Assembly (NCBI GenBank): GCA_902590125.1
Contig: CACIVL010000004.1
Coordinates: forward strand, 1-35,929
Length of the DNA stretch: 35,929 bases
DNA from: an uncultured Pelagibacteraceae bacterium
GTDB lineage: Bacteria > Pseudomonadota > Alphaproteobacteria > Pelagibacterales > Pelagibacteraceae
Reading direction: 5' to 3'
In this document: positions 7,686-31,843 of the stretch, one piece after another
Layout of the letters: every line of letters starts with the position of its first letter
Numbering within the stretch: position 1 is the first letter of the stretch
Made by a program: the position numbers and the translations under genes
The notes under the pieces: generated by a model
What the model saw: the letters and a program-made list of their open reading frames with translations, nothing else
Told to the model about the DNA's origin: nothing
The model's database searches: none

Positions 7686-8888
7686 ATGAGAATAAGTAAA
7701 CTTATCTATGTTGCACTTTTCTCTTGGTTTTTGGGTATTTTTAGTATCGCATCTGCACAAGAATTGTGCACGGAATGCTTGAGCAAGGTGCCTAAGGACA
7801 TGAGGGACTATGTTTACAACATGGACTTTATGGATAAAGATCAGCCTCTAGGACCAACTGTTATGAAAGGTTGGAAAAGCCCTAGAAAACCACCTTGGAC
7901 GATCGGTTATGCTAGTACATACGCAGGTAATACTTGGCGTAAAGGTGCTATGGAACGTCTAATGGAGGTTGTTTACCCTAAATGGAAAGCCCTTGGAATG
8001 GTTGATGAAATTGTAATTACTCAATCTAATTTAGATGACACATTACAAATTCAACAAATGAGACAAATGATAGATGGTGGAAAAGTTGACGCGATTATTA
8101 TTTGTTGTTCAAACTTAACCGCTCTTAACCAAACAATTAAGTATGGTTGGGAAAAAGGCGTTCCAACACTTTCATTTACTGGATTTACAACGTCACCATA
8201 TTCAATCAATACATCAGTTAACTACCGACTAGTTGGTTATTATATTGGTGCTTGGATGGCTGAATTAATTGGTGAAAAAGGAAATGTTATCGTTATGGAC
8301 GGAATTCCTGGCTACTCAGCATCTGACCAACAAAGTGATGGAATGTTAGAAGGTTTAGGACAATACCCTAACATAAAAGTTGTTGCACAGTTAGCGCACA
8401 ACTGGACATCTCAAGTTGCACAGAAAGAATTATCTCAATGGTTATCAAGTAACCCAATAGAGATACATGGAATCGCTGTTCAATCTTCAGGAGAAACTGG
8501 AACTTTACAAGCATTGCTTCAGTCTGGTCGTGATCCAATTCCACCAATTGCATTAGGTGGAGAGCTAGGTGCTCTATGTTATTGGAGACAAAATCCAGGT
8601 TATATCGACGAAGCGATATATGCTTGGCCTCCAGGAGATGAAATCGAACTAGGTATGGAAGTAATGATCAGAACTTTACAGGGTCAAGGTCCAAGAATTC
8701 AATCTATATTGGTTGGACCAGCAACGAAAAGTTTTGACGATATCGCAAAAGTGTTAGGCGAAGATTGCGATAGAAACTCTACTGGTTGGGATAATCCAGG
8801 AATAGAAAACTGGGCTCCTAGAGCTTATGTTGAAACATTCTTTGATAATCCATCAGATCCAGAGAAATACGATCCAAAATCTCACTAA
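7686..8888 (+). CDS. Sugar-type ABC transporter periplasmic substrate-binding protein
   Basis: Signal peptide, AGGAGGAG ribosome-binding site, periplasmic-binding fold (IGYASTYAGNTWRKGAMERL...VDAIIICCSN...), followed by RbsA-like ATPase and two RbsC-like permeases. Confidence 0.82.
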   Translation: MRISKLIYVALFSWFLGIFSIASAQELCTECLSKVPKDMRDYVYNMDFMDKDQPLGPTVMKGWKSPRKPPWTIGYASTYAGNTWRKGAMERLMEVVYPKWKALGMVDEIVITQSNLDDTLQIQQMRQMIDGGKVDAIIICCSNLTALNQTIKYGWEKGVPTLSFTGFTTSPYSINTSVNYRLVGYYIGAWMAELIGEKGNVIVMDGIPGYSASDQQSDGMLEGLGQYPNIKVVAQLAHNWTSQVAQKELSQWLSSNPIEIHGIAVQSSGETGTLQALLQSGRDPIPPIALGGELGALCYWRQNPGYIDEAIYAWPPGDEIELGMEVMIRTLQGQGPRIQSILVGPATKSFDDIAKVLGEDCDRNSTGWDNPGIENWAPRAYVETFFDNPSDPEKYDPKSH

Positions 8889-8909
8889 TACTTTAAAATT
8901 TTAAAGTAT
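8888..8909. repeat. 22-bp perfect palindrome ATACTTTAAAATTTTAAAGTAT at SBP/ATPase junction
   Basis: Direct reading; touches the stop codon of the upstream gene and overlaps the ATG of the next. Confidence 0.7.
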
Positions 8910-10677
8910 GAGTGCAGAACCAAATACAAAAGACAACACCTCTAACAAAGAGGTGTTGTCTAACAAATCAAATACTGTTACTGGCGATATTTATGTTCAA
9001 GATGTTCATAAATATTTTGGTGTAACTAGAGCTCTTAACGGAGTTAATTTTAGTGCAAACTTTGGTGAGATCCATGCCATAGTTGGTGGTAATGGTTGTG
9101 GAAAAAGTACACTTGCAAAAGTAATGTCAGGCGTCTTACCAATTGATAAAGGTAAAGTTTCTGTCTTGGGTCATGTCCCTACCTCACCCGTTATGGCGAG
9201 AGAGCTCGGTATAGCTACTGTTTTTCAAGAAGTAATGATAGCTGAAGAAGCTTCTGTTGTAGACAACTTGTTTGTTGGCTCAGATAGTTTTTGGTACAAA
9301 AATTTAACACAAAGAGAAAAAGTTTTAAAAGCGCAAGAACTTATGGAAGATCTTGCTGGAGAATATATAGATCCTTATACTCAAGCATTTAATTTATCTT
9401 TACCCATTAAAGCTTGGATTACTATAGGAAGAGCATTTTTACGTGAAAACACAAAAGTACTAATTCTAGATGAATCTTCAGCAGCACTTGATTTTGATTC
9501 AACTGAAAGACTATTTAAAAAAATGAGAGAATTAAGAGATAATGGAGTTGCAGTTTTTATTGTCACTCATCGAATAGCAGAATTAATACGTATAAGTGAT
9601 AAAGCAACAGTTATGAGAGATGGTAAAGATGTTGGTGTTCTTGAAAAAAAAGATCTTAACGAAAAAAATTTATTGAGTTTAATGACAGGAAGAACTGAAT
9701 CAGGTGAAAAATCTACATCAGTTGCAGTAAAAACAAAAACAGACAAAGTGGTAATGAAAGCAGAAAATCTAGTTGTTTGGCCGGAAAGTAAACCGGTTAA
9801 TTTTGAAGCACGTAGAGGTGAAATAGTAGGTGTTACAGGATTAGATGGTAACGGTCAGGATGACTTTGTAAAAATTTTAGCAGGTGTGCAAGAATCTCAA
9901 GGCGGTACTACCGAAGTCTTAGATGTTAATAACAAATTCATAAAATATAATTCTTTAATGGAGGCAAAAAACAATGGAATTTCCTTTGTTTCAGGAGATA
10001 GAAAAAAAGAAGGAATACTTCCTAACTTAAGTATTTACGAAAATTTAGTAGTTCCACTTTATCGAACAACAAGTAAGGCAGGATGGTTGGGTTTTGTTAA
10101 CTGGCTTGAGTTAAACGGCATATATGAATACGAAGTTGATAGACTAAGCATTAAAACTGGTCCAAGAGATAACCTTATAGGTTCGTTAAGTGGAGGCAAC
10201 CAACAAAAAGTTATGATAGCTAGATCTTTGGCAACGCATCCAAAAATTCTTGTCTTGAATGATCCTGCTAGAGGCATTGATGTAAGCACAAAAAGAGATT
10301 TATACACTCATCTCAGAAATTTTGTAGAAGAAGGAAATACAGTTATTTTCCTATCAAGTGAACTTGAAGAGTTTATCGGACTTTGTCCAAAAGTAATTGT
10401 ATTTAGACATGGAACAATATTCGATATTTTTGAAAATGAAAAAGTTAATGCAGATACCTTGCTCGAAGGAATGTTTGGTCAAACTGCAGGTATAGGATCA
10501 ACTAGTATTAGCAAATCTAATAGTGGTAATTTTTCAGAAAAAACAAATGAGATGAACACTTATAAAAAAAATCCAGCTAGTATAGATAAAAAAATTATAA
10601 AAGTTGTAGACTTTGATAAAGAAAAAAAATCTAAAGAAAATAATTCAAATAAAAAAATAAAAATAAAAACATTTTAA
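8908..10677 (+). CDS. Sugar-type ABC transporter ATP-binding protein, two nucleotide-binding domains (RbsA/MglA-like), with K/N-rich C-terminal extension
   Basis: GGNGCGKST Walker A, VLILDESSAALD; second domain SLSGGNQQKVMIARSL; C-terminal tail KKIIKVVDFDKEKK...KKIKIKTF. Start codon may be further downstream (see hairpin). Confidence 0.88.
   Translation: MSAEPNTKDNTSNKEVLSNKSNTVTGDIYVQDVHKYFGVTRALNGVNFSANFGEIHAIVGGNGCGKSTLAKVMSGVLPIDKGKVSVLGHVPTSPVMARELGIATVFQEVMIAEEASVVDNLFVGSDSFWYKNLTQREKVLKAQELMEDLAGEYIDPYTQAFNLSLPIKAWITIGRAFLRENTKVLILDESSAALDFDSTERLFKKMRELRDNGVAVFIVTHRIAELIRISDKATVMRDGKDVGVLEKKDLNEKNLLSLMTGRTESGEKSTSVAVKTKTDKVVMKAENLVVWPESKPVNFEARRGEIVGVTGLDGNGQDDFVKILAGVQESQGGTTEVLDVNNKFIKYNSLMEAKNNGISFVSGDRKKEGILPNLSIYENLVVPLYRTTSKAGWLGFVNWLELNGIYEYEVDRLSIKTGPRDNLIGSLSGGNQQKVMIARSLATHPKILVLNDPARGIDVSTKRDLYTHLRNFVEEGNTVIFLSSELEEFIGLCPKVIVFRHGTIFDIFENEKVNADTLLEGMFGQTAGIGSTSISKSNSGNFSEKTNEMNTYKKNPASIDKKIIKVVDFDKEKKSKENNSNKKIKIKTF
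8931..8961 (+). promoter_or_regulatory. Perfect 13-bp stem-loop AGACAACACCTCT-aacaa-AGAGGTGTTGTCT near the 5' end of the ATPase ORF
   Basis: Direct reading of inverted repeat, 5-nt loop. Confidence 0.75.
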
Positions 10678-11198
10678 TGAAAAAAGAAACTATAAATAAT
10701 TACTACACAGATGAAGATTTAATTAATTTTAAAAAATTAAATAATTTTAAAGAATTTAAAGCTAATAAATTAGACAACACTCAAACAACAAAACATCAAG
10801 TGAAATATTCAATGTCTGACAATAGTAATTTTAATAAAATTATGAACGTTGAAAATAGTGAAACATCTTTATTTAAAGAGATAAACAAATTAAAAGAAAA
10901 TATATACTACAACTCATCAGATTTTCAAAAATTTAACAAACTTCAGCAATTCGCAAGTTTTGATATCAACAAAGACACAAAGAATGAAAAAGAATATTCA
11001 AAAACTATCACAAGTTATACTTCTGATGACGTAAATAAATTTGATAAAATCATCAAAACCAAAAATGAAGATACAAACAGCAAAGAAACTAATAACAAAA
11101 AAATTAAAATAATTGATTTTAAAAAGTTAAAAGAAAAGGAAAAAAATTTTAAAAACAAATTGGGTATTGAAAAAATTAAAGTTGTTTATTTCGATTAA
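10677..11198 (+). CDS. Hypothetical 173-aa protein built from ~34-aa-spaced short motifs plus a tail shared with neighbouring proteins (putative scaffold/docking protein)
   Basis: Translationally coupled (TAATG) to the upstream ATPase; Y-[ST]-x-x-D-x-x-x-F-x-K-[IL]-like motifs at residues 10, 44, 78, 114; tail KKIKIIDFKK...IEKIKVVYFD. Confidence 0.75.
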   Translation: MKKETINNYYTDEDLINFKKLNNFKEFKANKLDNTQTTKHQVKYSMSDNSNFNKIMNVENSETSLFKEINKLKENIYYNSSDFQKFNKLQQFASFDINKDTKNEKEYSKTITSYTSDDVNKFDKIIKTKNEDTNSKETNNKKIKIIDFKKLKEKEKNFKNKLGIEKIKVVYFD

Positions 11199-11201
11199 TT
11201 T

Positions 11202-13523
11202 ATGGAAATTGTAGATAAAATTGCAAAAACTTATAGATCTAGTGTAGATACTTCTTCGAACAAGTATCTTATGGTGCCAATTTTTATTTTCTTTTCTCTA
11301 TTAATTTTTGCAATGATAAGAAGTCCAATTATAATTTCCCAATCAGGTATTGGTAGTGCAATAATTCTTAGTGCACCACTTATATTAACAACTTATGCTT
11401 TAACATTTATTGTTATGGCTGGCAGAGGTGGTGTCGATTTATCTATTGGTCCTTTTATGGGTTTTATAAATGTCAGCAGTATTCAGTTATATGCTCACGG
11501 ATATTTGCAAACTCCAATTGGTTGGTTCATCTATGCAATTGTCATAGGTTTAATTTGGCAATTTTTTTATGCTTTGATTGTAGTATTCGTGAGAGTTTCA
11601 CCAATTATAGTCGCATTGGCAGGCTATCTAGCATTCACTGGAATCAATCTCGTTATTCTATCTCGTCCAGGAGGTATTGCTCCAGATTGGTTAATACCTT
11701 GGGGAGAAGGATTTACAATATTTAATGAAGTATTGCTTCTAATGGTTTTAGCAACAATTTTATTTTACATCATCACTCACACAGCTTTTTGGGGTCATTT
11801 AAAATTAATGGGTTCTGATGAGCGTGCCGCATTTACAAGTGGTGTTAAAATTAACTGGGTAAGAATAGTTGCGCATTTAATAGCAGGAGTTTTTGCAGCC
11901 TTATCTGCAATATGTTTTACAGCTCTGGTAGGTTCTGGAGATCCTATACAAGGAACAAAATATACTCTTTTAGGCGTGACCGCATTAGTTCTTGGTGGGG
12001 CAAGTCTTGTTGGTGGTAGAGGTGGTGCATTTGGTGCTATTTTGGGAGCTGGAAACCTTTATTTAATAAATTATATTTTAGTTACCTTTAGATTTGAAAG
12101 ATTACAAAGCTTTGTTTCTGACTTATCCTATGGTGCTGTCTTGGTTATTGCTTTGCTTGTAAGTCTTATTCTTCCTTACGTACAAAGAGTAACTAAAGGA
12201 TTGTCCGTTATGGTTTTTTTCATTCTTATGTCTTTTGCTGGCACATTCGTTATAATGCATCAAGTTTATGATCAACCAATCGTAGTTGAATCTGAAGTAA
12301 AAGAAGATATTGACGAAGCTTCTAAAGCTTATCAAAGAGGAACCAAAGTTCGTAAGTTAGATGCTACGGGAAATATTATTGTTGAAGAAGGCGAAGCAGG
12401 AACTACTACTGGAACAGGAACAAAACAAGGCGGATCATTAGCTGGTCACTCAGTCGTTAGATTAACTGAAACTCCTGGAACAATAATGTTTTATGTAATT
12501 ATTGGAATAGCAGGTCTCGCGCTTCTTCTTTATTTGCTTACTGTTCACAGAAGTCCTTCAACAGTAACCTTTACTGTCATTGTTGCCATCATTGTAGCAG
12601 GTTTAATTTTCGATCCTGAAGATAAAGAAAAAAATTTATTAAAAGATACTGAAAAGATAAGTTTACAATCGGGACAAACAAGTAGTATCGAAACTTCATC
12701 ACCAAAATATTTTAGTCTTGAGAAGATTGATTATTTCTCAAATTTATCTATTTCAGGAACAACTTATAGTATAATTTATATTGCTGGAGTTGTTCTACTA
12801 GCTTCATTAATTGTAATAGCAATGTTACCACAATTTAGTAATCGTATAAAATCTACCGCCATGCTCTTCTTTCTGGCTGCCTTGACAATAATTGTTTTAA
12901 AAGGTGTCTCTTATAATAATTTAATTGAAAGTACTGATAAAAGCTTTTTTGGCATCCAAGGATACGGTGTCATATTGGTAATTTTATTGCTTTTTGTTAT
13001 TACAGCTCCATTCGTTCATTCAAGAATAAAAAATCTCACAAATGTTTATATTTTTGGATTAGGTGTTTTAGCAATAATAACTACTTATTTTGTTGGAGGA
13101 AATACATTTATACCTGATGATCCTTCGCTTTATCAGTCTAAAATAATAAGTGAATTAAATATTGGAGATATTTCCCAAGTAAAATATGGAGAACCAAAAA
13201 GATTTTTTTATGATATTTTAAGAAGTGGTTATTCACAAGTAGCTTTTAGTATCCTTGCTGTTTTTTTACTGCAATACTTTTTATTTTTAAATATGGGTCA
13301 TAAAGCAAGTTATAAAAGGTTTGCTCCGTATATGTATATTGTAATATTTGCAAGTTTTCTATGGGCTGCAGTATTTTATTCTGTAGGATATTCTTTTTAT
13401 AAAATTATCGCCGTATTTATTATTGGAATACCGCTTACTCCTCTAGTATGGCAATTTATGAGCGTCTACAGAGAAAAAGTAGGACGTGATAGACAATTAA
13501 GTCAATGGGAAGAGGTAAAATAA
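11202..13523 (+). CDS. Sugar-type ABC transporter permease (BPD_transp_2/RbsC-like) with long additional C-terminal membrane region
   Basis: N-terminal RbsC-like part (MAGRGGVDLSIGPFMGFINV, TALVLGGASLVGGRGGAFGAILGA); ~430 additional aa with several hydrophobic segments. Confidence 0.82.
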   Translation: MEIVDKIAKTYRSSVDTSSNKYLMVPIFIFFSLLIFAMIRSPIIISQSGIGSAIILSAPLILTTYALTFIVMAGRGGVDLSIGPFMGFINVSSIQLYAHGYLQTPIGWFIYAIVIGLIWQFFYALIVVFVRVSPIIVALAGYLAFTGINLVILSRPGGIAPDWLIPWGEGFTIFNEVLLLMVLATILFYIITHTAFWGHLKLMGSDERAAFTSGVKINWVRIVAHLIAGVFAALSAICFTALVGSGDPIQGTKYTLLGVTALVLGGASLVGGRGGAFGAILGAGNLYLINYILVTFRFERLQSFVSDLSYGAVLVIALLVSLILPYVQRVTKGLSVMVFFILMSFAGTFVIMHQVYDQPIVVESEVKEDIDEASKAYQRGTKVRKLDATGNIIVEEGEAGTTTGTGTKQGGSLAGHSVVRLTETPGTIMFYVIIGIAGLALLLYLLTVHRSPSTVTFTVIVAIIVAGLIFDPEDKEKNLLKDTEKISLQSGQTSSIETSSPKYFSLEKIDYFSNLSISGTTYSIIYIAGVVLLASLIVIAMLPQFSNRIKSTAMLFFLAALTIIVLKGVSYNNLIESTDKSFFGIQGYGVILVILLLFVITAPFVHSRIKNLTNVYIFGLGVLAIITTYFVGGNTFIPDDPSLYQSKIISELNIGDISQVKYGEPKRFFYDILRSGYSQVAFSILAVFLLQYFLFLNMGHKASYKRFAPYMYIVIFASFLWAAVFYSVGYSFYKIIAVFIIGIPLTPLVWQFMSVYREKVGRDRQLSQWEEVK

Positions 13524-13524
13524 A

Positions 13525-14940
13525 ATGAAAAGATCAGCTTTTCTTTTCTTCAAAGGGTTGGGATTATTATTTGCAATATTGTGCGGTATAGGTACTGCAG
13601 TATTAGGTTGGTTTGATGGTGCCGACTGGATGAATATTGTAACTTACTCTATAGCAGTAACTGGATTAATATTATGGGGTTGGTATCATTTTTCTATTAG
13701 ATGGATTAATAGTGACTTAAAGCAAAATATATTTACTAAATTTCCTAAAGAAGAAAAAGTTGAAAGTAAAGAAATTTCTGAAGAAGAAAATGAAGAAAAC
13801 TTCTTCTTTAAAATTATTCGTGATAACAAATGGAAAGTATTAGCTTTTATTTTATTAATACTTATTTTTATTTTTGTTTCTTTTATTGCTGAAGGTTTCT
13901 TTTCAGGTCGTACCTTAGTATCTTTTTTAATATTCCTAGGATTTATCATATTAATGGGAGTTGTTGGTCAATATGTAACTGCCCAAAAAAGTGTCTTTAT
14001 TGGTATTTGTGTCTTAATTGGATTATTTATATTAGGATCACTTACAATAAGTGGCTTTCTCTCAATGCTGAATATGAAATCAATGTTGGTGTTTGCGGCA
14101 TTTTTAGGTTTAGCTACAGTGGGTCAAACTTTTGTTGCATTATTGGGAGGTCTTGATTTATCAATTCCATTTTTAATAGGAGCATCTAACGTTGCTCTAA
14201 TGTCCTTAATTTCTAAGGGTGTTCCCCCGTGGTTAGGTTTGGTTGCTGTGTTATTATTAGGTCTAATAATAGGATTAATAAATGGTATTCTAAGCTTTAG
14301 ACTTCAAGGTCAGGCATTAATACTAACTTTAGGTGTTGGTTTTTTTGTTAAAGGTGGTGTTCAAATTCTTGTAGCGATGGGTACTTTCTCTGCTGGTACA
14401 GTATTTGGTGTTGTACCAGATTGGATGAGAAATATTGCTTCCATGAATGGTAAAACCATTGGACTTCCTATTCCCCCTATAATTTTAATTTGGATTGTCG
14501 CTTCTATAATTATAATCGTTGCTCTTCGCTTAACTAAATGGGGAAGAAATCTTTATGCACTTGGGGGAAGTCGATTATCATCTTCAAGATTATCTATTTC
14601 TGAAAGAGGATATTGGATTGGTGCTTATGTAATTAGTGGTTTTTTTGCAGCACTAACTGGTGCATTGCTTCTTGGATGGAGCGGCGGTGGTTTTATAGGA
14701 GTTGGTGATACTTATTTATTTTTAACAATTGCTGCAGTTGTTGTTGGAGGAACTTCGTTGCTGGGAGGTTACGGTGGATACGGATTAAGTGTAATTGGAG
14801 TCTTAATTTTACAAGTAATTACAACGGTGCTAATTGGCTGGGGTTTAAAATGGGAAGCGCAACAATTTATATTAGGTTTATTAATTATACCAATGGTTGC
14901 TCTATATGCAAGATCGCCACATATTAGATCTCAGATTTAA
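13525..14940 (+). CDS. Sugar-type ABC transporter permease (BPD_transp_2/RbsC-like)
   Basis: LLGGLDLSIPFLIGASNV, AAVVVGGTSLLGGYGGYGLSVIGV motifs; multi-TM. Confidence 0.87.
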   Translation: MKRSAFLFFKGLGLLFAILCGIGTAVLGWFDGADWMNIVTYSIAVTGLILWGWYHFSIRWINSDLKQNIFTKFPKEEKVESKEISEEENEENFFFKIIRDNKWKVLAFILLILIFIFVSFIAEGFFSGRTLVSFLIFLGFIILMGVVGQYVTAQKSVFIGICVLIGLFILGSLTISGFLSMLNMKSMLVFAAFLGLATVGQTFVALLGGLDLSIPFLIGASNVALMSLISKGVPPWLGLVAVLLLGLIIGLINGILSFRLQGQALILTLGVGFFVKGGVQILVAMGTFSAGTVFGVVPDWMRNIASMNGKTIGLPIPPIILIWIVASIIIIVALRLTKWGRNLYALGGSRLSSSRLSISERGYWIGAYVISGFFAALTGALLLGWSGGGFIGVGDTYLFLTIAAVVVGGTSLLGGYGGYGLSVIGVLILQVITTVLIGWGLKWEAQQFILGLLIIPMVALYARSPHIRSQI

Positions 14941-14958
14941 AATGAGAAGGATAATAGA

Positions 14959-15678
14959 ATGATGAAAATAAATTGTGATATGGGTGAAAGTTTTGGAATT
15001 TATAATGCAGGCAATGATGAAGAAATAATGCCTTTAATAGATGTTGCCAATGTTGCATGTGGTTTTCATGCCTCAGATCCTAATCATATGAGAAAGACAG
15101 TAGAGCTAGCAAAAAAATATAAAGTAAAAGTAGGAGCACATCCATCTTTTCCAGATTTACAAGGTTTTGGAAGAAGAGAAATGAAAATGCCAAAATTGGA
15201 TTTAAAAAATATGATAATGTATCAAGTTGGTGCTCTTAAAGCCTTTTTGGATGAATTAAAGATGCCTTTAAATCACATAAAGCCTCATGGATCTCTTTAT
15301 GTTATGGCGTCAAGAGATGAAGAAATAGCAAGAGCAATCGCAGATGCAGTAGAAGCTTTTGATGTAAGTATTTATGGAATGGCAAATACTGCGCATGAAA
15401 AAGTTTATAAAAAAGAAAGAAAGTTAGATTTTGTCGCTGAGTTTTACGCTGATTTAGATTATGATAAAGAAGGAAAACTTGTAATAGCAAAAGGAAAAAA
15501 TTCAAAATATAGTAGTAAATTAGCAGTAAACCGTTGCTTAAGAGCCATTAAAGAAAAAAAAGTTAAGAATACTAGTGGCACAGATACTGATGTTGGGTGT
15601 GATATAATTTGTGTTCATTCAGATACGCCTAATGCTGTTGAAATAATAAAAAGTTTAAAAAAAGCTCTTAAAAAATAA
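14959..15678 (+). CDS. pxpA: LamB/YcsF family protein, 5-oxoprolinase subunit A-like
   Basis: INCDMGESFGIYNAGNDEEIMPLIDVANVACGFHASDP, VGAHPSFPDLQGFGRREM: LamB/YcsF hallmark. Confidence 0.92.
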   Translation: MMKINCDMGESFGIYNAGNDEEIMPLIDVANVACGFHASDPNHMRKTVELAKKYKVKVGAHPSFPDLQGFGRREMKMPKLDLKNMIMYQVGALKAFLDELKMPLNHIKPHGSLYVMASRDEEIARAIADAVEAFDVSIYGMANTAHEKVYKKERKLDFVAEFYADLDYDKEGKLVIAKGKNSKYSSKLAVNRCLRAIKEKKVKNTSGTDTDVGCDIICVHSDTPNAVEIIKSLKKALKK

Positions 15679-15683
15679 ATTAG

Positions 15684-18140
15684 ATGAAGAAAATTCTAAT
15701 AGCAAATCGTGGAGAAATTGCCTGTAGAATCATTAATAGTTGCAAAAAATTAAAGTTTCATTCAGTTGCTGTTTATTCCGATATAGACAAGAGCAGCAAA
15801 CATGTTAGAGAAGCAGATGAATCAATTCATATAGGCGGTTCAAAAGCACAGGATAGTTATTTGTCTTCAGACAAAATAATTAAAGCAGCTCAAAAAGTAA
15901 AAGCTGATGCTATTCATCCAGGCTATGGTTTTCTCGCCGAAAATGATCAATTTGCACAGAAAGTAATTGATGCTGGGATAATTTGGATAGGACCTAAACC
16001 TAATACTATTGTTTCTATGGGCAACAAAGATATAGCAAGAGATTTGGCTTTAAAAAGTGATCTTCCAATTTGTCCAGGTTTAACCAATCAAGATTTAGAA
16101 AAAAATGATTTAGAAAAAAAATGCAATGAGATTGGATTTCCTATTTTAGTAAAAGCAAGTGCTGGTGGTGGCGGAATAGGAATGCAAATTGTAAATAATT
16201 TTAGTGAATTAGTTAAATCTGTGGAAAAAACTAAAAATTTAGCGAAGAAAGCATTTGGTAATAGTGATGTTTTTTTAGAAAAATTTATAAAAAATGCAAG
16301 ACACATAGAAATACAAATATTTGGTTTTGGCGGAAAAAAAGCTGTCCATTTCTATGAAAGAGATTGTTCAATACAAAGAAGATTTCAAAAAATTATAGAA
16401 GAGAGTCCAGCTCCAAAAGTAAATTCAGAAATTATAAATAGAATGGCAGAAAGTGCTGTAAATTTTGCCGCCAATCAAAAATACGAAGGTGCTGGAACAA
16501 TAGAATTTATTTATGATGTAGACGAAAAAAAATTCTACTTTTTAGAAATGAATACAAGAATTCAAGTAGAACATCCAGTAACAGAATCTATAACAAATTC
16601 TGACTTAGTTGGAATGCAAATCAAGTTTGCATTAGGAATTGACTTTGATCTAACAGAACAAAATAAAATTAATAAAACTGGTCATGCTATTGAGTGTAGA
16701 CTGTATGCTGAAGACCCATCAAAAAATTTTCTTCCTTCACCTGGAAAAATTTCAAAACTTAAAATTCCAAACACTAATTTAACAAATATTAGATTAGATA
16801 TTGGCGTGGATGAAGGAGATGAAATATCTTTTTATTATGATCCAATGATAGCAAAAATTATTGCTAAAGGATCTACCAGAAATGAAAGTATTAAAAATAT
16901 GATACAATATTTAAAAGAATTTGAAATTGAAGGAATTAGTACTAATAAATCTTTTTTAATATCTGTACTTCAAAATAAAAATTTTGAAGAGGCAAATTTT
17001 AATACAAAATTTATTGAAAATAACTTGGCCTCATTTATTAAGAAAAAAGAAAATATTTTACCAACCAAAGAACAAGATAAAAATAAAATTAAACAAGAAT
17101 ATAGCGATAAAGATGTAAAAGCTTTTGAAAAAATTATTTCTAAAACACCCAAAAGTAAAAATGGCCAAGGCTATTCAGAAAAGGATTTAAAAGCCTTTGA
17201 TAATATTGTTTCTTCAAAAAAGAAAAAAACTCAAACAGAATTAAAAGAAGAAGTTAAAAATATTCAAGGTAAAATTTACGATACTCCTAAATTTTTACCT
17301 GCTGGTGATAAATATATGCTTATTGAATTTGGTAATGTAATGAATTTAGAATTAAATTTTACTGCTCAAAATTTAGCTAAAGCAATTAAAGAACATAAAG
17401 TTAGAGGTATTTATGAAACTTCTCCTTGTTTTGCATCTATGCTAGTACACTATGAACCAGAAGAAATAAAATTTGATGATTTAAAAAAAGAATTAAAATC
17501 TCTTGTAGACTCTTTAGGTCCTTCTGATGATATAGAAATTAATAGTAGAATTTTTTCTTTTCCTACAGTTTATCTTGATAAATGGACAAAGGAATGCATT
17601 GAAGATTACTCAAACAAAATAGCTAAAAAGAAACCTGATCCTGAGCTTATTACAGAATTAAATAATTTGGAAAGCACAGAACAATTTGTAAGAGTACATT
17701 CTGGAACTGAATATTGGGTCTCTGCTATAGGTTTTTGGCCTGGCCTTCCGTTTATGATGGCTCTTGACCCAAGGTGTAAGCTTACAGTTCCAAAATATAA
17801 CCCTCCACGAACATGGACACCAAAAGGAACAGTTGGAATGGGCGGTGCTTCTACATCAATATATCCTGATCGGTTACCGGGTGGATATCAAATTTTTGGA
17901 ATTATTCCTGTTCCAATTTGGGATACAAAAAAAAGTTTTCCAGTATTTGAAAATAACATTTGTCTTTTTCAACCGGGAGATAGAGTAAAATTTATTCCTA
18001 CAACGTATGAAGAGTTTGATCATGTTTCAAAAAAAGTAGAAGATGGTACTTATGATTACAATATTATTGAGTATCAAAAATTTTCTGTAAAAAATTATAA
18101 AAAATGGCTAACTACAATTGATCAAACGAAAAGGTTTTAA
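15684..18140 (+). CDS. Fusion of biotin carboxylase and KipI/AHS1 (PxpB-like) domains joined by a motif-containing linker
   Basis: BC domain: KILIANRGEIACRII, FLEMNTRIQVEHPVTE; KipI/AHS1: GLPFMMALDPRCKLTVPKYNPPRTWTPKGTVGMGGASTSIYP; linker with EYSDKDVKAFEKIIS and GYSEKDLKAFDNIVS. Confidence 0.9.
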   Translation: MKKILIANRGEIACRIINSCKKLKFHSVAVYSDIDKSSKHVREADESIHIGGSKAQDSYLSSDKIIKAAQKVKADAIHPGYGFLAENDQFAQKVIDAGIIWIGPKPNTIVSMGNKDIARDLALKSDLPICPGLTNQDLEKNDLEKKCNEIGFPILVKASAGGGGIGMQIVNNFSELVKSVEKTKNLAKKAFGNSDVFLEKFIKNARHIEIQIFGFGGKKAVHFYERDCSIQRRFQKIIEESPAPKVNSEIINRMAESAVNFAANQKYEGAGTIEFIYDVDEKKFYFLEMNTRIQVEHPVTESITNSDLVGMQIKFALGIDFDLTEQNKINKTGHAIECRLYAEDPSKNFLPSPGKISKLKIPNTNLTNIRLDIGVDEGDEISFYYDPMIAKIIAKGSTRNESIKNMIQYLKEFEIEGISTNKSFLISVLQNKNFEEANFNTKFIENNLASFIKKKENILPTKEQDKNKIKQEYSDKDVKAFEKIISKTPKSKNGQGYSEKDLKAFDNIVSSKKKKTQTELKEEVKNIQGKIYDTPKFLPAGDKYMLIEFGNVMNLELNFTAQNLAKAIKEHKVRGIYETSPCFASMLVHYEPEEIKFDDLKKELKSLVDSLGPSDDIEINSRIFSFPTVYLDKWTKECIEDYSNKIAKKKPDPELITELNNLESTEQFVRVHSGTEYWVSAIGFWPGLPFMMALDPRCKLTVPKYNPPRTWTPKGTVGMGGASTSIYPDRLPGGYQIFGIIPVPIWDTKKSFPVFENNICLFQPGDRVKFIPTTYEEFDHVSKKVEDGTYDYNIIEYQKFSVKNYKKWLTTIDQTKRF

Positions 18141-18145
18141 TATTT

Positions 18146-19273
18146 ATGGTAAAAGTAATTAAAAAAGGCTTAGAAACATCTGTTCAAGATTATCCTGGGA
18201 GAATTGGAACTCTTAATCTAGGTTTTCCGCCATCGGGTCCTATGGATAGTTGGTCTTTCAGGCTTGCTAATGTTTTGGTTGAAAATGAACCTGGTGCTGC
18301 AGCCCTAGAATGTCAATTTATGGGTCCTACTCTTAAGTTTAATAGTGATAGAATTATTGCTATCACTGGTGCTGATATGTCTCCAAAAATAGATGGCAAA
18401 TTGGTTCCTTTATGGGAAAGCTTGGAAGTTAAAAAAAATCAAACTTTAGAACTGGCTTATGCAACAATGGGCGCTAGGACATATATTGCTTTTTCAGGAG
18501 GAATAAATACCACTCCATGGCTAGGCTCAAGATCAACCTTTCATAAAGCAGGAGTTGGTGGTATCGAAGGAAAAGCAATTCAAGATGGTCAAATTATTCC
18601 TTTAAACAAATCTAAATCTGTCGCAGGAAGAAAAATTAAAAAAAACTCTATACCAGTTATGTCTACAAATAAAAAATGGTCTGTAGAAGTTGTTAAAGGT
18701 CCTAATGATGATTGGGTTGATGAAAAAGGACATAAAATGTTTTTAAATTCCGATTGGAAGCTTCAGTCTAAAAGTGACAGAACTGGTTATAGATTAGAAG
18801 GACCAAAGTGGTCTTTTACAAAAAAAGCAACTCACAAAGGTTTAGAACATGGAACATTTCCTTCAAATATTATTGATCAAGGATATCCAGTAGGCGCCAT
18901 AAACTTAGCTGGCCAAACTCCAATTATATTAGTTAATGATGGTCCTAGCATGGGTGGATTTATCGTTCCCTATACTGTTCCTTCAGCTTCTTTTTGGAAA
19001 CTTGGACAAGCAAAACCAGGTGATAGTTTTAATTTTGTGGAAATATCAGTTGAAAAAGCTCAAACATTAAGAGCTGAACAAAGTATTATTTGTAGTGAAT
19101 TAAGTTTAGCGTCTTCTAAAGAAGAAAATGTTGTTATTCCTAAAATACCAACTAAAAAAATTGATCATATTAAAATAGTAGATTTTGATAAAGAAAAAAT
19201 AGATGAAAAAATCAGAAATAAAATAATGGAAAAAAGAGGAATGAAAAATATTAAAGTTCGTTTTTTTAATTAA
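18146..19273 (+). CDS. KipA/AHS2 (PxpC-like) biotin-dependent carboxyltransferase family protein with C-terminal motif tail
   Basis: SVQDYPGRIGTLNLGFPPSGPMDSWSFRLAN, GGFIVPYTVPSASFWKLGQAKPGD; tail DHIKIVDFDKEK...KNIKVRFFN. Confidence 0.9.
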   Translation: MVKVIKKGLETSVQDYPGRIGTLNLGFPPSGPMDSWSFRLANVLVENEPGAAALECQFMGPTLKFNSDRIIAITGADMSPKIDGKLVPLWESLEVKKNQTLELAYATMGARTYIAFSGGINTTPWLGSRSTFHKAGVGGIEGKAIQDGQIIPLNKSKSVAGRKIKKNSIPVMSTNKKWSVEVVKGPNDDWVDEKGHKMFLNSDWKLQSKSDRTGYRLEGPKWSFTKKATHKGLEHGTFPSNIIDQGYPVGAINLAGQTPIILVNDGPSMGGFIVPYTVPSASFWKLGQAKPGDSFNFVEISVEKAQTLRAEQSIICSELSLASSKEENVVIPKIPTKKIDHIKIVDFDKEKIDEKIRNKIMEKRGMKNIKVRFFN

Positions 19274-19295
19274 AAAAATAACATGAAAAAAATTT

Positions 19296-19514
19296 ATGGC
19301 AACTGAAGTTAAAACAACTGTACCAGGCAATATGTGGAAGGTTTTAGTCAAAGAAGGAGACACAGTAAAAAAAGGTGATCCTTTATTTATTATGGAAGTT
19401 ATGAAAACAGAAGTCCATCACGATTCTCCGGTTGACGGAAAAGTGATTAAAGTTAATGTTGTAAACGATCAAGAAGGCATAGATCCAGGTACAGTAGCAG
19501 TTATAATTGAATGA
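19296..19514 (+). CDS. Biotinyl carrier domain protein (BCCP-like)
   Basis: 72-aa lipoyl/biotinyl fold with MEVMKTE (biotinylation lysine context). Confidence 0.9.
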   Translation: MATEVKTTVPGNMWKVLVKEGDTVKKGDPLFIMEVMKTEVHHDSPVDGKVIKVNVVNDQEGIDPGTVAVIIE

Positions 19515-19720
19515 TACAAAAAAAAACAAAAGAATCTTTATATTTAACAATAATAAATGACCTGTCAGACGATATAGGAATATCAAAAGAAGAAACGAAA
19601 AGTTTGGTTGATGTTGCCCTGTACTCTACTGATCCCAGAGATGTAGATTACGAACAGTTAAAAAATGAAATTACAACATTTCTAGTTATCAACATTTTTT
19701 TTCTTATCTGTAAATTGTAA
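19511..19720 (+). CDS. Small hypothetical protein overlapping BCCP stop (ATGA)
   Basis: 69-aa ORF with ATGA overlap, same operon; no family recognised. Confidence 0.5.
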   Translation: MIQKKTKESLYLTIINDLSDDIGISKEETKSLVDVALYSTDPRDVDYEQLKNEITTFLVINIFFLICKL

Positions 19721-19725
19721 TTTTT

Positions 19726-20325
19726 ATGCAAGACCAAATAATCTTATACAATGGTCCAAATTCTCCTTTTGGAAGAAAAACTAAAGTAACCTCTTTAGTG
19801 CAAGAAATTAAATTAGAAGAAAAAATTATTAATGTATATGAAGCTTATTTTTTAGATAAACACAATCCTATAAGAAAAATTCCAACATTAATGGTTAATG
19901 AGTTGGCAATTATGGATAGTGATAACATTTGTTTGTATCTTGATTCAATTTCAAAAAAAAATACTTTATTTCCTAAAAAAAAATATTGGGAAATAATGTC
20001 TATGACTTCAATCGCTAATGGATTAATGGAGTCTGTGCTAGAAAGACGTATGGAATCAATTAGACCTGATAATGAAAAAAGCAATAGTTTCATAAACAAA
20101 CAGGAAATAAGAATTACAAGAACTATCAAATGGTTGGAAAATAATTGGAATAATTACGATGAGAATTATCTAACAATGGATCAAATTGCCATTGGATGTG
20201 CTTTGGATTACACTATGTATAGATTTGACGATAGATGGAGATCAGAAAATTCAAAACTCAATAAGTGGTTTACCATTTTTGTTGAAAATGATTTTATGAA
20301 ATCTACTTTGCCACGAGAAAAATAA
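19726..20325 (+). CDS. Glutathione S-transferase-like protein
   Basis: Thioredoxin-like N-terminus IILYNGPNSPFGRKTKV, NPIRKIPTLMVNELAIMDSDNICLYLD. Confidence 0.8.
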   Translation: MQDQIILYNGPNSPFGRKTKVTSLVQEIKLEEKIINVYEAYFLDKHNPIRKIPTLMVNELAIMDSDNICLYLDSISKKNTLFPKKKYWEIMSMTSIANGLMESVLERRMESIRPDNEKSNSFINKQEIRITRTIKWLENNWNNYDENYLTMDQIAIGCALDYTMYRFDDRWRSENSKLNKWFTIFVENDFMKSTLPREK

Positions 20326-21300: not shown

Positions 21301-22137
21301 TTAATCGTAGTAAAACATTGGTGCTTTTTTCCAATCTTGCCAAGAAACTGGGTCATGGCCCCAAATAACTTTTGCATCATGTTCTCTCGCAACTCTTCTT
21401 AATTTTTTAACAGATTCTGCTGCATCAGAAGATGAAGCAACAAGTCCTGGCAAACATTTATCACACCAATGATCACCCGTATAACAAGCATCTCCAGTAA
21501 ATAACATATGACCAGTTTTTGGAAGATTGACCAATACCGATTGATGACCAGGAGTATGCCCAGGTGTAAATATTACTTTTATAACTCCATCACCATAAAC
21601 ATCGTAAAAATCAGTTTTTCTACCTTGTAAAAATTTCCAACGAATATTTGGTTTATCAAAGTCCGCTCTAATGTAAGCTGGTTGTGAAAACCAATCAGGA
21701 TTAAATGCATAATCATATTCTAATCTTTGTGTAATATGTGTAGCATTTGGAAAATGTCCTATTGCACCTGAGTGATCTAAGTGAAGATGAGTTTGTATAA
21801 CATATTTAACATCTTCAGGTTTTGTATTAACAGTTTTTACCATATCCTTACACCATTCTGATGTTTTCATTACCGGGTCATAAGCTTCAACCACAGAACC
21901 CCAATGTTTATGTTTATCTATAGCTGCCTCTATTGGCATTCCACCATCTATAATTACATCGCCCTCAGGATGTTTAATTAAAAACCATGGTACTGGAATT
22001 TCATAAGGTTCTTCACCTTGGTTCATTTTTATAAATTTTAATTTTGTTTTAATTGAACCTGTTTGAAACATGTATAATTTAATACCTGTATTAAATTTTG
22101 TTGTTTGTTCAAAAATATCTTTGTCTTTTTCTTTCAT
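21301..22137 (-). CDS. Metallo-beta-lactamase fold hydrolase, N-acyl homoserine lactonase/AttM-BlcC-like
   Basis: QTHLHLDHSGAIGHF (HxHxDH), FTPGHTPGHQSVLV, LFTGDACY, IWGHD. Confidence 0.87.
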   Translation of the reverse strand: MKEKDKDIFEQTTKFNTGIKLYMFQTGSIKTKLKFIKMNQGEEPYEIPVPWFLIKHPEGDVIIDGGMPIEAAIDKHKHWGSVVEAYDPVMKTSEWCKDMVKTVNTKPEDVKYVIQTHLHLDHSGAIGHFPNATHITQRLEYDYAFNPDWFSQPAYIRADFDKPNIRWKFLQGRKTDFYDVYGDGVIKVIFTPGHTPGHQSVLVNLPKTGHMLFTGDACYTGDHWCDKCLPGLVASSSDAAESVKKLRRVAREHDAKVIWGHDPVSWQDWKKAPMFYYD

Positions 22138-25407: not shown

Positions 25408-25776
25408 TTATGTGCAACGCCTTGGTGCTGATTCACCTCGTTCTTTTTTGATTCTTTCAGCTTCTTTCTGTGCTGCTTCAATTGAAGTAAAAACTTTATC
25501 TTCATACAAAATAAATGGCTTAGCTCTATCAGCATTAAGCTGGGCTACACACCATTCTTTACCAGGCTTAGTGCACATTACCATGTAAGCTCCTGGTATA
25601 GGTCCGTATTTTCTATTATTTAAAGTAAAAAGACTTTTAGCTAGTTCATTTAGTTTATCTTCATCTAAATTTCCCAAAGCATTTTTTTCTAATTCATTAA
25701 AAGGTGTAACATTATCAGATCCTAGTATGCTTTTACCGCCTGTTCCTTCTGGTCTTGTAAATTGAGGTTTGTTCAT
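25408..25776 (-). CDS. Small protein, possible second DMFase small-subunit-like protein
   Basis: 122 aa; AYMVMCTKPGKEWCVAQLNADRAKPFILYEDKVFTSIEAAQKEAERI resembles by eye the C-terminal part of the 28156-28575 protein; 1-nt overlap with the large-subunit gene. Confidence 0.5.
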   Translation of the reverse strand: MNKPQFTRPEGTGGKSILGSDNVTPFNELEKNALGNLDEDKLNELAKSLFTLNNRKYGPIPGAYMVMCTKPGKEWCVAQLNADRAKPFILYEDKVFTSIEAAQKEAERIKKERGESAPRRCT

Positions 25777-28133
25777 TAAGGTAATGGACCTTCCTTTAAA
25801 AATCCTCTTATTGCATTCTCAAGAATTTTAGAGACATTATTATTATAATTGTTGTAAGACAAACTTCCACACCAAGAGAGAGACCCTGGAGCAAACAATG
25901 CTCCATCATTTGGGGTTTTATAATAAATCATATCAGCTCTAACCATGGGATTTTCTGTACCTCCGCCATAAAAACCTCTCACAGTAAAATGGATTTCTTC
26001 ATTAACTTGCATCATCAAATTTGTGTGGTTTTCTGACCTTGCTAGTAAATAGGCATTATGAGGTGTGCCAAAATCTAGATCATATCTATCAAGTTCAAGT
26101 CCAGCAGCACCTCCTCCAACTAAACCAAAGTCTCCAATAACTTCATTCTCTCCTACCCCTTCAAAAATCCATGAACATTCTGGTCTTTTGCTATCAGGTT
26201 CTCGTTTATAATATGAGGAAACATCAAACCCGTAAGCTGTAAATGTTAGGCCGCAAACTTTAGATGGAATTCTTCCTCTTGCTCTCCACATTCCGCCATA
26301 TTTTCCATCAAATGCATTATTATACTCTCCTGGGTTTGCTGTCCAAGCTCTAGTCCCTGCTTCTCCTTTTCTAACTTCTATAATATTTGGGTTATCTGGA
26401 TGATATTCGCTAATCCAATAAAAACCATCAGAACCTAAATATATCCATCTTCCACCATTTAATTGATACGACTCATATGCAGCAAGCATTTTTTCTGAGC
26501 TATATTCAGGGTGCGATCCAGTTAAAACGCATCTATAACGATTTAACATATCAACTCCTTCAATATGTAAATCTTCATCTGTAACAACATCAAAATCTAA
26601 ATTCTTTTCTTCTAACCAATCTGTTAAATGAAGGTCTGCATTTAATTGCCACAAAGAAGGTGATAACCAGTGTCTATATTTTGGTCTCATATTAAGTATT
26701 GGCCTTAATCTTGATGAAATAGCAACTCCGCTCCCATCTGAATGTTTAGAATAAGTTGATAATCCATATTCTCTATGTTCGTTTAAATATAAATCTGATG
26801 CAGACAAAACTGGAACTTTGCCAGCTAATAATTGAGCAACTACTGAATTTGTTCCTAAATTATCATTTGAATAAGCCATATAGCTATTTGAAGGTAATAC
26901 AAATAAAAGTTTTGAAGTAGTTTTTCCTTTTGGAGGCTTTATAACAAATGGAATAAAATCTTCTGTTTCAGGAGAGTCTTCTCCGTTAATTCTTAACCTA
27001 GCAGCATAAACTCCACTTTTTATTAAGTCAGGAACTTCATAAGTAAAATCAACTTCCCATCTCGCATCATCAATATCATCATCATGAAAATGTATTGCCC
27101 CATACTCTTCAGGTTTGTGATGAAAAACCATCTCGTCTGCTGTCCAATTATATCCTGTCATTCCCCTACATGGTAAATTGATTATAAAACCATTTAGATG
27201 GTTTGAAGTGGTATCTATTATATAAGTTGAAGCAATATTTGTAGTTATGTTTGCATGAAAATCCCAAGCTCCTATCACCTCTGATCTTAAGTCTGATGGA
27301 CAGCCGCTATAGCCTCTTGCTAAAGATTCAATTTCTGATTTGGATAAAGCTTTTTTGCTTAATCTTGGTCTATCGATTTTACCATTATAAGTTAAAGTTT
27401 GCTCTGGCAATTCAACTGGTTCTATTGCTTCTTTATAGTGAGCTCCTTGAATATGTCTACCTGAACGATCATTTAGTGTACATGCTGCCATTAAAAAAGG
27501 TGCATCGTTTGCTCTTGGTTTTAAATTATTTGTTGCTTCAACAACAGAAGTTGTTTCATCAGCAGGATGAAGTAACGACATACCCAGTCCACCATTTGTT
27601 GGTGTTACACAAGGTTCTTGGTAAAGTTTTACCTTTCCTGTTTCAGCATCGTAACTAGCCGCAACAAGATACCAAATTTTATTCATTAATTTTTTTTCAC
27701 TAGAAAGATTCATAACTTGACCAGCGCCATCTCCTATCATCACTGAAAGACATGAATTTTCATCAATAAAAAGGCCATAGCCACTTTTAGCTTTATCATT
27801 CCACTTTGTTAAAATACCTTGTTTTCCTTTTTCTGAAGTTGTTGGAAATATATATGCCTGCAAAGTAAAACTGGATGTATTCAACCTTTGATCCTGAGGA
27901 ATAACAACGTAAGAACCACCATGTATTCTTTGGTTTCTTCCTTGATACGTTTTATTACATTGTGCGCCTATTTCTTCTTCTTTATACCCAGGACCTTCTG
28001 GGTTTGTATCTCCATGAATTAGCCTGACAATTTGAACATCATAATTTTCTTTCTTTTCTGCATTCACATAAAACTTAACTTTTTCGCCAGGAAAAGCAGA
28101 ATATTTATTACTATAACCCGTAATTCTTAACAT
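25776..28133 (-). CDS. N,N-dimethylformamidase-like large subunit
   Basis: N-terminus ITGYSNKYSAFPGEKVKFYVNAE...VQIVRLIHGDTNPEGPGYKEE and internal LLFVLPSNSYMAYSND recognised as DMFase beta-like from memory; LamG-like region between; small-subunit-like gene upstream. Confidence 0.82.
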   Translation of the reverse strand: MLRITGYSNKYSAFPGEKVKFYVNAEKKENYDVQIVRLIHGDTNPEGPGYKEEEIGAQCNKTYQGRNQRIHGGSYVVIPQDQRLNTSSFTLQAYIFPTTSEKGKQGILTKWNDKAKSGYGLFIDENSCLSVMIGDGAGQVMNLSSEKKLMNKIWYLVAASYDAETGKVKLYQEPCVTPTNGGLGMSLLHPADETTSVVEATNNLKPRANDAPFLMAACTLNDRSGRHIQGAHYKEAIEPVELPEQTLTYNGKIDRPRLSKKALSKSEIESLARGYSGCPSDLRSEVIGAWDFHANITTNIASTYIIDTTSNHLNGFIINLPCRGMTGYNWTADEMVFHHKPEEYGAIHFHDDDIDDARWEVDFTYEVPDLIKSGVYAARLRINGEDSPETEDFIPFVIKPPKGKTTSKLLFVLPSNSYMAYSNDNLGTNSVVAQLLAGKVPVLSASDLYLNEHREYGLSTYSKHSDGSGVAISSRLRPILNMRPKYRHWLSPSLWQLNADLHLTDWLEEKNLDFDVVTDEDLHIEGVDMLNRYRCVLTGSHPEYSSEKMLAAYESYQLNGGRWIYLGSDGFYWISEYHPDNPNIIEVRKGEAGTRAWTANPGEYNNAFDGKYGGMWRARGRIPSKVCGLTFTAYGFDVSSYYKREPDSKRPECSWIFEGVGENEVIGDFGLVGGGAAGLELDRYDLDFGTPHNAYLLARSENHTNLMMQVNEEIHFTVRGFYGGGTENPMVRADMIYYKTPNDGALFAPGSLSWCGSLSYNNYNNNVSKILENAIRGFLKEGPLP

Positions 28134-29869: not shown

Positions 29870-31843
29870 TTACTTAGAACTCTTGGTTCCTTTAGTTGGA
29901 TCATTGTCGAAGTTCATATGATAATCTTTTTTTGGATTCTCATAATCGCCAAGAATATTTCTGATGTTGCTTATTTCTCCAGGATTCATTCCAATTTCTT
30001 TAAGCAAACTATCTAAAAATGGTTGATGTGCTCTATAACGTAGTGCTGAACTAACGACGTTATCTGCTAAATTACCACTTCTTCCAGATCCTCCTGCAGT
30101 TACTCCTTCTCCGCTGCTTCCTCCTGAACCAGAGGTTCCACTAAAACCAGGTAAACCATTAACATCAACAATTTTGATATCACCTATGTTAGCCATTGGT
30201 TTAACGCTTTCTCTAATGATTGCTTCAATTTTCTCAGCAAGTTTTAATCTCAGTGCACTTCTTCTACTTGCGTCACTTCTTAAGTTTTCAGCAGCGTTTA
30301 ATGCTTCCTTACCAGCTGCATCTATCTCATATCTTAACTTCGCTGCCATAGTAGCAAACCTATCTTGTTCGGCTTTTGAAGCAGCAGAAATAACATCAAC
30401 TTTTTTAATACCTTGTGCTTTTTCTATGTATCTAGCTGAATTTGCTTTTTCTTCAGCTTCTACTGCTCTTGCTCTTGTTGCTTCTTCTTCTGCTTTAGAT
30501 TTTAATACTTGTTTTGATTTATTAATTACTTCAAGATTTTTTTGATGTTCTTCTATACTTAATCTCTTAGCTTTTTCTATATCAAGAAGCCGTACTTCTC
30601 TTTCCGTCTCAATTCTATGAGAATCTATATTTCTTTGTTGAGCTATTTTAGCATTTTTAATTTCTTGTTCAGAAATTATTTGTGCTTCTTCGGCATCTTT
30701 TTGTCTTTCTGATTGTTCTTTAATTATAGCGGTTTTTTCCTGAGCACGCTTTATATCAACTTGCCTTTGTTTTTCTAAACGTGCATATTCACTTTCTTTA
30801 TCTAGATTCAAAATTTTTACTTCTGTCTCCAGGTCTTTTTGTCTTATTTCATAAGCTGCATTTTTTTCTAACTCATTTTGCTCTTTTCTTCGTTTTTCAA
30901 TTTCTTCAATCAATCTTGTTTCGGTTAATTTTCTTTCAACTTCAATAACTTGATTTTGAGAAATTTTTGCTACTTCAATTTGCTCTTGGCTTCTTATTTC
31001 AGCTTCTTCAGCTTCACGTTCTTTTTCAGCTCTTTGTTTTACAGTTTCCGTTCTTTCTTTGGCTTTTTGAATAGCAACTTCTCTTTCTTGTTGATATCTA
31101 GAAAACTCCTCGTTCTTCTTAATCTCTAATTCTTTTTGAACAGTTTCTAAGTTTTTATTTTCAATTGAAATTTTTGTATCTTGCGTGATATCATTTCTCT
31201 TTTTCTTTCTAGATTCAATTTGTTCAGTTAATTGCGTTAAACCTTGAGAGTCAAAAGTGTTTGCAGGATTAAACTGTTCAATTGGAGTTTGATCTAATGA
31301 TATAATAGAAACAGTTTCTAATGCTAAACCTGTGTGGCCTATTGATTCATTAGCAATCTTTGTAACTTCTTTTACAAATTGTCCTCTGTTTTCTTGAATT
31401 TCATCTAATGTCATTTTTGCAGCAACTTCTCCCAGTGCATCTGCAAAACGACCTGCAACTACTTCTCTTAAATGTTCTGGATCAAGAGTTCTATTACCCA
31501 AAGTCTGTGCAGCAGTTGCTACAGCTCTTTGATCTGGTGGAACTTTTGTAAAAAATTCAGTTACCAACTCTGCTCTCATCCTATCTTTTGTAATAAGTGA
31601 TTTTTCTCCAGATCTTTTTATATTAATGCTTAATGTACGCATTCCAACTTGCGTTATGTTATGAATAATAGGTAAGACAAAAGCTCCACCTGATATAACA
31701 ACTTTTTCTCCAAGCATTCCTGTACGTACAAATGAAACTTCTTTTGATGATCTTCTGTATAGCCAATGCAATAAATAAACCACAATTGCTATTGCAAGCG
31801 CTAATAAAATTATTGCTGCTATTATATCTGCTCCTCTAGTCAT
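29870..31843 (-). CDS. Flotillin / SPFH (Band 7) family protein
   Basis: N-terminal TM, GGAFVLPIIHNITQVGMRTLSINI, long Glu/Lys/Arg-rich coiled coil, Gly/Ser-rich C-terminus. Confidence 0.88.
   Translation of the reverse strand: MTRGADIIAAIILLALAIAIVVYLLHWLYRRSSKEVSFVRTGMLGEKVVISGGAFVLPIIHNITQVGMRTLSINIKRSGEKSLITKDRMRAELVTEFFTKVPPDQRAVATAAQTLGNRTLDPEHLREVVAGRFADALGEVAAKMTLDEIQENRGQFVKEVTKIANESIGHTGLALETVSIISLDQTPIEQFNPANTFDSQGLTQLTEQIESRKKKRNDITQDTKISIENKNLETVQKELEIKKNEEFSRYQQEREVAIQKAKERTETVKQRAEKEREAEEAEIRSQEQIEVAKISQNQVIEVERKLTETRLIEEIEKRRKEQNELEKNAAYEIRQKDLETEVKILNLDKESEYARLEKQRQVDIKRAQEKTAIIKEQSERQKDAEEAQIISEQEIKNAKIAQQRNIDSHRIETEREVRLLDIEKAKRLSIEEHQKNLEVINKSKQVLKSKAEEEATRARAVEAEEKANSARYIEKAQGIKKVDVISAASKAEQDRFATMAAKLRYEIDAAGKEALNAAENLRSDASRRSALRLKLAEKIEAIIRESVKPMANIGDIKIVDVNGLPGFSGTSGSGGSSGEGVTAGGSGRSGNLADNVVSSALRYRAHQPFLDSLLKEIGMNPGEISNIRNILGDYENPKKDYHMNFDNDPTKGTKSSK

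Follow-up and report, generated by a model that had tools for sequence, protein, structure and literature searches.

A C-terminal tail and a short motif as candidate halves of a docking system in an importer-carboxylase operon of Pelagibacteraceae

The locus and its genes

The window, which is the whole stretch of DNA analysed here (35,929 nucleotides), comes from an uncultured Pelagibacteraceae bacterium represented by a 698-kb assembly that is 56% complete. At 7686-20325 it carries an operon that encodes an importer, a protein named REP, YcsF, an AccC-KipI fusion, KipA and a biotin carrier, followed by small genes. The genes of the locus are the following:

7686-8888, plus strand: periplasmic substrate-binding protein of the importer (Peripla_BP_4)
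8908-10677, plus strand: ABC ATPase gene of the importer
10677-11198, plus strand: REP, 173 amino acids, predicted to be mostly disordered, with four Y-D-F motifs and a C-terminal tail; proposed hub
11202-14940, plus strand: two importer permeases (BPD_transp_2)
14959-15678, plus strand: LamB/YcsF (PxpA-like) subunit (PF03746), without tail or motif
15684-18140, plus strand: AccC-KipI fusion of a biotin carboxylase and a carboxyltransferase subunit (Pfam Biotin_carb_N, CPSase_L_D2 and Biotin_carb_C, plus CT_C_D)
18146-19273, plus strand: KipA gene
19296-19514, plus strand: biotin/lipoyl carrier protein (PF00364), without tail or motif
21301-22137, minus strand: MBL-fold hydrolase of the cluster, without Y-D-F motif
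25776-28133: dimethylformamidase-like gene, from sequence inspection and context
29870-31843, minus strand: flotillin gene, from size, spacing, sequence inspection and context
31865-32563, minus strand: FArhodopsin gene, from size, spacing, sequence inspection and context

The window covers the FArhodopsin-flotillin cluster published in 2023, for which the Pelagibacterales SAG AG-390-L03 (locus L073 in the set described below) serves as the reference (PMC10308929); the rhodopsin, the flotillin and the dimethylformamidase are identified by inspection and context. The features by which the cluster is recognised are present, since the rhodopsin gene adjoins the flotillin gene and YcsF, carboxylases and the dimethylformamidase-like gene lie nearby. 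According to the paper, HIMB59 has the cluster as well, including a PxpA-like gene, biotin-dependent carboxylases, a dimethylformamidase and flotillin; transporter and carboxylase genes are described there, and flotillin-organised membrane domains are proposed (PMC10308929).

A search of a genome collection with KipA returned 80 loci. Nearly all loci of clade A (L045-L088) are named as Pelagibacteraceae or SAR11-like bacteria, while clade B (L089-L115 and L117-L120) is HIMB59-like and belongs to another order; the FArhodopsin paper assigns SAGs of the AG-337 series of clade B to HIMB59 (PMC10308929). The outgroups, L116 and L121-L124, are more distantly related. The permease encoded at 11202-13523 (773 amino acids) has a single recognised domain (residues 54-317) and about 450 further residues, which are unusual in this transporter type and are kept in both lineages. 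A 69-residue ORF at 19511-19720, located 3' of the biotin carrier, recurs in the majority of clade A loci, with weak counterparts in clade B (at most 43% identity).

A C-terminal tail restricted to one operon

The same bipartite element terminates the ABC ATPase, REP and KipA, and it is kept in about 40 Pelagibacteraceae genomes. In the window, the tail profile matches three protein ends:

10588-10674, plus strand: ATPase C-terminal tail, bipartite IK[IV][IV]DF ... KIKIKTF (E 2.7e-8, the sequence itself being part of the profile)
11094-11195, plus strand: REP C-terminal tail (E 5.9e-13)
19160-19270, plus strand: KipA C-terminal tail (E 1.4e-13)

An earlier note on this DNA had claimed one C-terminal tag for these three proteins, and the claim holds at 10588-10674, 11097-11195 and 19163-19270, with one-codon offsets in two coordinates. 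The tails are about 22-37 amino acids long and have no predicted fold, and no significant match to REP or the tail was found among solved structures.

The relationship between the tails was examined by leaving classes out: a profile built from a single tail class was searched against 3456 ORFs, with shuffled databases as the control. The REP-tail profile recovers KipA tails (best E 1.2e-4), the KipA-tail profile recovers REP (E 1.6e-3), the profile of the clade B AccC tail recovers REP (E 3.7e-5) and that of the clade B ATPase tail recovers the clade A ATPase (E 1.6e-4). The weakest single link is that from the clade A ATPase to KipA (best E 0.036), and the best matches in shuffled databases lie at E 0.12-0.6. 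A similarity beyond chance is therefore supported by the single-class profiles, by the exact C-terminal position of every tail and by conservation across genomes, and the comparison with shuffles rules out chance or low-complexity similarity.

At E<0.001, the 34-column tail profile matches operon proteins only in samples of the family, the order and the class, with the exception of one KipA-like match in another family, which is probably mis-binned. Genomes with a complete operon have two to three significant matches, all of them inside the operon, two outgroup genomes have none, and the weak extra matches in family genomes all lie at E above 0.003. Tail-positive genomes of the clade B type (family f32) came up in the class search and are related to the genome of the window at class level only. 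The earlier note would have abandoned its reading if the tail were widespread on unrelated proteins or missing from syntenic orthologues; profile searches of the family, order and class samples found no tail on proteins outside the cluster, and Pelagibacteraceae operons carry it. Two records with clade A type genes, L067 (a Flavobacteriales record) and G542 (another alphaproteobacterial family), are probably mis-binned contigs. More than half of the sampled family genomes contain a PxpC-like paralogue, which has no tail.

REP and a second shared element

The second shared element is the motif Y-x3-D-x3-F-x2-[IL], of which there are four copies in REP and two in the linker of the AccC-KipI fusion:

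10704-10739, plus strand: REP motif 1, invariant Y10, D14, F18 and L21 (profile match)
10806-10841, plus strand: REP motif 2, invariant Y44, D48 and F52, near-invariant I55 (profile match)
10908-10943, plus strand: REP motif 3, invariant Y78 and D82, near-invariant F86 and L89 (profile match)
11016-11051, plus strand: REP motif 4, invariant Y114, F122 and I125, near-invariant D118 (profile match)
17100-17135, plus strand: AccC-KipI linker motif 1, YSDKDVKAFEKI (profile E 4.3e-7)
17172-17207, plus strand: AccC-KipI linker motif 2, YSEKDLKAFDNI (profile E 1.4e-6)

In an alignment of 24 REP proteins, the invariant residues fall mostly in these four copies and in the tail. The REP of the window has no significant Pfam or NCBIfam family. 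MerR_1, which one other REP matches at E 1.8e-5, was rejected, the match probably reflecting a similar helix start. Among 297 genomes of the family, REP is found in seven, every match lying at the tail end. At L066, the importer and REP are on the opposite strand, and REP is longer (207 amino acids).

The motif is far more frequent than expected from composition. There are 128 copies in 33 REP proteins (shuffles: mean 0.2, maximum 4), 78 in 40 fusion linkers (shuffle maximum 1) and 32 in 27 KipI extensions of the HIMB59-like type (shuffle maximum 1). Clade A fusion linkers carry two motifs each, except for that of L066, which has none. The remaining operon genes of the fetched loci contain no motif, and the 16 further matches in these loci all fall within spurious-looking ORFs. 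A blind whole-genome scan with the motif profile adds one more real-looking protein, the MBL-fold hydrolase of the cluster in clade B (E 0.009-0.010), which bears a single motif on an N-terminal extension (N-terminus MEKKLSVSYKKSDLDQFDKIITNK; L194, 6526-7479, minus strand, with orthologues in L197-L211). This motif is kept in 13 of the 13 clade B orthologues with a readable N-terminus and is missing from the Pelagibacteraceae orthologue in the window. The earlier note had listed the repeat as a separate element; it turns out to be part of the same system as the tail.

Selection and predicted structure

Both elements are under protein-level purifying constraint within nearly unconstrained linkers. 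In REP, the 16 key positions of the motifs have a pN/pS of 0.01 and the stretches between motifs one of 0.76, and in the AccC-KipI linker it is 0.18 for the motif 12-mers and 0.76 for the remainder. The tails have values of 0.31 (REP), 0.33 (KipA) and 0.42 (ATPase), and the linkers that precede them 0.82 (KipA) and 0.94 (ATPase), with pS between 0.40 and 0.53.

AlphaFold2 models REP as a single chain with a mean pLDDT of 58 and a pTM of 0.16; the only four helices of at least four residues are located at the four motifs, and there is little confidence elsewhere. The KipA model has a folded core, residues from about 321 onwards that are mostly below pLDDT 65, and a tail below about 55 with a possible low-confidence helix in its spacer. 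The earlier note had seen two beta-strand-like segments in the tail and had proposed beta-augmentation, which these single-chain models, representing the unbound state only, do not support: the KipA tail is predicted to be disordered, and neither it nor the REP tail has strands. The mean net charge of the tails is +3 to +6, and most motifs are slightly negative. Helical amphipathicity exceeds that of shuffles in some motif copies only, and was therefore rejected as a general property of the motif, several copies not being above shuffle.

Redistribution between lineages

In clade A, every complete gene for the ATPase, REP or KipA encodes the tail (the end of KipA is truncated in L052), and AccC and KipI are fused through the linker with its two motifs. 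In clade B, REP is missing and AccC and KipI are separate genes; the ATPase keeps its C-terminal tail, AccC terminates in a tail (e.g. KRIKIVETDKLKVGHRRSQSDRGGIKVVYFD), and KipI begins with an extension of about 120 amino acids that bears the motifs. The clade B KipA (65-69% identity) has no tail. The expectation that orthologous operons would carry the tail is thus correct for the KipA of Pelagibacteraceae and fails for that of HIMB59-like bacteria, where the tail sits on AccC instead. The KipA tree requires one or two changes for the tail.

Tailed AccC and motif-bearing KipI in clade B stand against a covalent chain of AccC, two motifs and KipI in clade A, so that the tail/motif pair corresponds to the fusion. 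Tail and motif co-occur in every complete operon where either was found, and three outgroup operons with the same enzyme (L121, L123 and L124) have neither the KipI extension nor the tail nor the motif. At L009 (genome G038) and L010 (genome G020) there is an importer with a tailed ATPase and an intact REP, and both loci lack the carboxylase block; no carboxylase was found elsewhere in these assemblies, which are 63-65% complete.

A proposed docking system and its alternatives

The co-assembly tag suggested by the earlier note is the best-supported reading of the tail, the binding itself being read from sequence patterns. Tail and motif would be the two halves of a docking system at the inner membrane, in which the motif would act as a short linear motif, helical and carried by flexible segments, and the tail as an adaptor that terminates a flexible tether, most likely the partner that the motif binds. 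Docking would join a sugar-type ABC importer, via its ATPase, to a split urea-carboxylase-like biotin enzyme composed of AccC, KipI, KipA and BCCP, with YcsF. In Pelagibacteraceae, the disordered REP, with its four motifs and single tail, would serve as a multivalent hub; the docking pair of clade B would also bring in the hydrolase. If the importer is docked to the carboxylase, substrate could pass across with little loss.

The docking reading is supported by the charge complementarity of the elements, their co-occurrence in every complete system and the fusion correspondence, as well as by the operon-only tails, the motif counts against shuffles, selection, the blind match to the hydrolase and the AlphaFold2 models, with helices at the REP motifs and a KipA tail that extends as a flexible appendage. 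The motif-free linker of L066, the small number of independent lineages and a helical amphipathicity above that of shuffles in some motif copies only count against it, and REP may have another role, since G020 and G038 keep the ATPase tail and REP where the carboxylase was not found. On balance, it is somewhat probable that a two-part tail/motif system assembles an importer-carboxylase complex around REP as a multivalent disordered hub, a reading in which we infer the binding, the complex and the channeling. The wider proposal, that an undescribed tail/motif pair couples the importer ATPase to the downstream enzyme in a metabolon with a disordered hub, its modules re-dealt and gene fusion replaced, is evenly poised.

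Much of the pattern would be explained equally well by tail-tail or motif-motif contacts, or by a third partner such as flotillin. The tail, the motif or both could be address labels that send the importer and the enzymes to the flotillin microdomain of the cluster, each binding flotillin. The locus is the FArhodopsin-flotillin cluster, whose authors suggest that flotillin organises its membrane proteins (PMC10308929), and flotillin and rhodopsin themselves have neither element at profile significance. Address labels leave unexplained, however, why two different elements co-occur and why the tail/motif pair corresponds to a covalent AccC-KipI fusion, and it is not obvious why a soluble enzyme such as the split carboxylase should need a raft label on two of its subunits; this explanation is considered unlikely. 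Homotypic association, in which each element pairs with its own kind to form a condensate or multimer and tail and motif do not recognise each other, is equally doubtful. The presence of one element on several proteins would fit it, the IK[IV] segments are beta-prone, and a protein that is disordered, multivalent and lined with spaced aromatic residues is well suited to condensates; yet the single-chain models have no strands in the tails, the strongly positive tails disfavour packing against each other, and the split enzyme of HIMB59-like bacteria has different elements on its two parts, AccC bearing the tail and KipI the motifs.

The earlier note had also named a localisation or degradation signal, and the restriction to one operon makes a general localisation signal unlikely. 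A C-terminal degradation or processing signal common to co-regulated proteins would suit the position of the tail at the extreme C-terminus, but it is very improbable for an element that is restricted to one cluster rather than genome-wide, relocates between subunits of one enzyme and is accompanied by a motif for which such a signal does not account. Remnants of a mobile in-frame element or convergence through K/I/N-rich bias, despite an AT-rich genome and, in the window, ATPase and KipA tails whose first segments agree at 26 of 30 nucleotides, are already contradicted and can be given hardly any weight, given the lack of a palindromic fold (z -1.1 to 0.8) and of tail copies at other sites in the genomes, purifying selection with pS of 0.40-0.53, and leave-one-class-out profiles significant against shuffles. 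A selfish in-frame palindromic element was rejected likewise, with neither palindromic DNA nor copies at unrelated loci.

Comparison with known systems

Where the FArhodopsin paper describes the transporter and carboxylase genes and proposes flotillin-organised membrane domains, REP, both shared elements and the redistribution of these elements go unmentioned (PMC10308929). A functional analogue is CsoS2, the disordered and repetitive scaffold of the alpha-carboxysome, whose N-terminal domain binds the enzyme multivalently through four helical repeats (PMC11365436). REP resembles it in its disorder, its four predicted helices at four motifs and the near-neutral sequence between them. Unlike the case of CsoS2, the motifs are also found on the enzymes themselves and the proposed partners include the ATPase of a membrane transporter; searches of Pfam and NCBIfam gave REP no sequence relation to CsoS2, there was no significant PDB match, and no homology is claimed. 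No shell gene of a microcompartment was recognised among the operon genes scanned.

In NRPS/PKS docking, a beta-hairpin domain and a C-terminal SLiM join split subunits (PMC9113145). The present elements are likewise short and terminal and show a split/fusion correspondence, and they may join subunits in a comparable way, but the enzymes are different and the AlphaFold2 models have no N-terminal alpha-beta-beta-alpha-alpha domain in the tail or motif regions of REP and KipA. The NRPS/PKS docking domains are regarded as a functional analogue, with no claim of homology.

With respect to the enzyme, AccC, KipA, KipI and BCCP match successive parts of the single chain of urea carboxylase (TIGR02712). 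Here the genes are split and all score below the cut-off of 1303.85, with 732.2 (AccC-KipI) and 324.2 bits (KipA); docking elements would rejoin the parts that urea carboxylase holds in one chain. A likeness to the 5-oxoprolinase PxpABC is seen in YcsF, which is above two NCBIfam PxpA subfamily cut-offs, while the matches of KipI to PxpB and of KipA to PxpC fall short of the cut-offs (KipA 185.6 bits versus 500 for PxpC), and the operon differs from PxpABC in its extra biotin carboxylase and biotin carrier. No literature on SAR11 with 5-oxoprolinase was found.

Significance

The ocean holds very large numbers of SAR11 and HIMB59-like bacteria, whose streamlined genomes rarely keep spare protein. 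A dedicated scaffold and tails on the motor of the importer suggest that these organisms physically couple the capture of a scarce nutrient to its first conversion. If this is true, the operon would offer a testable case of transporter-enzyme coupling, engineers would gain a docking pair that is compact and orthogonal, and there would be a handle on the unexplained FArhodopsin-flotillin cluster.
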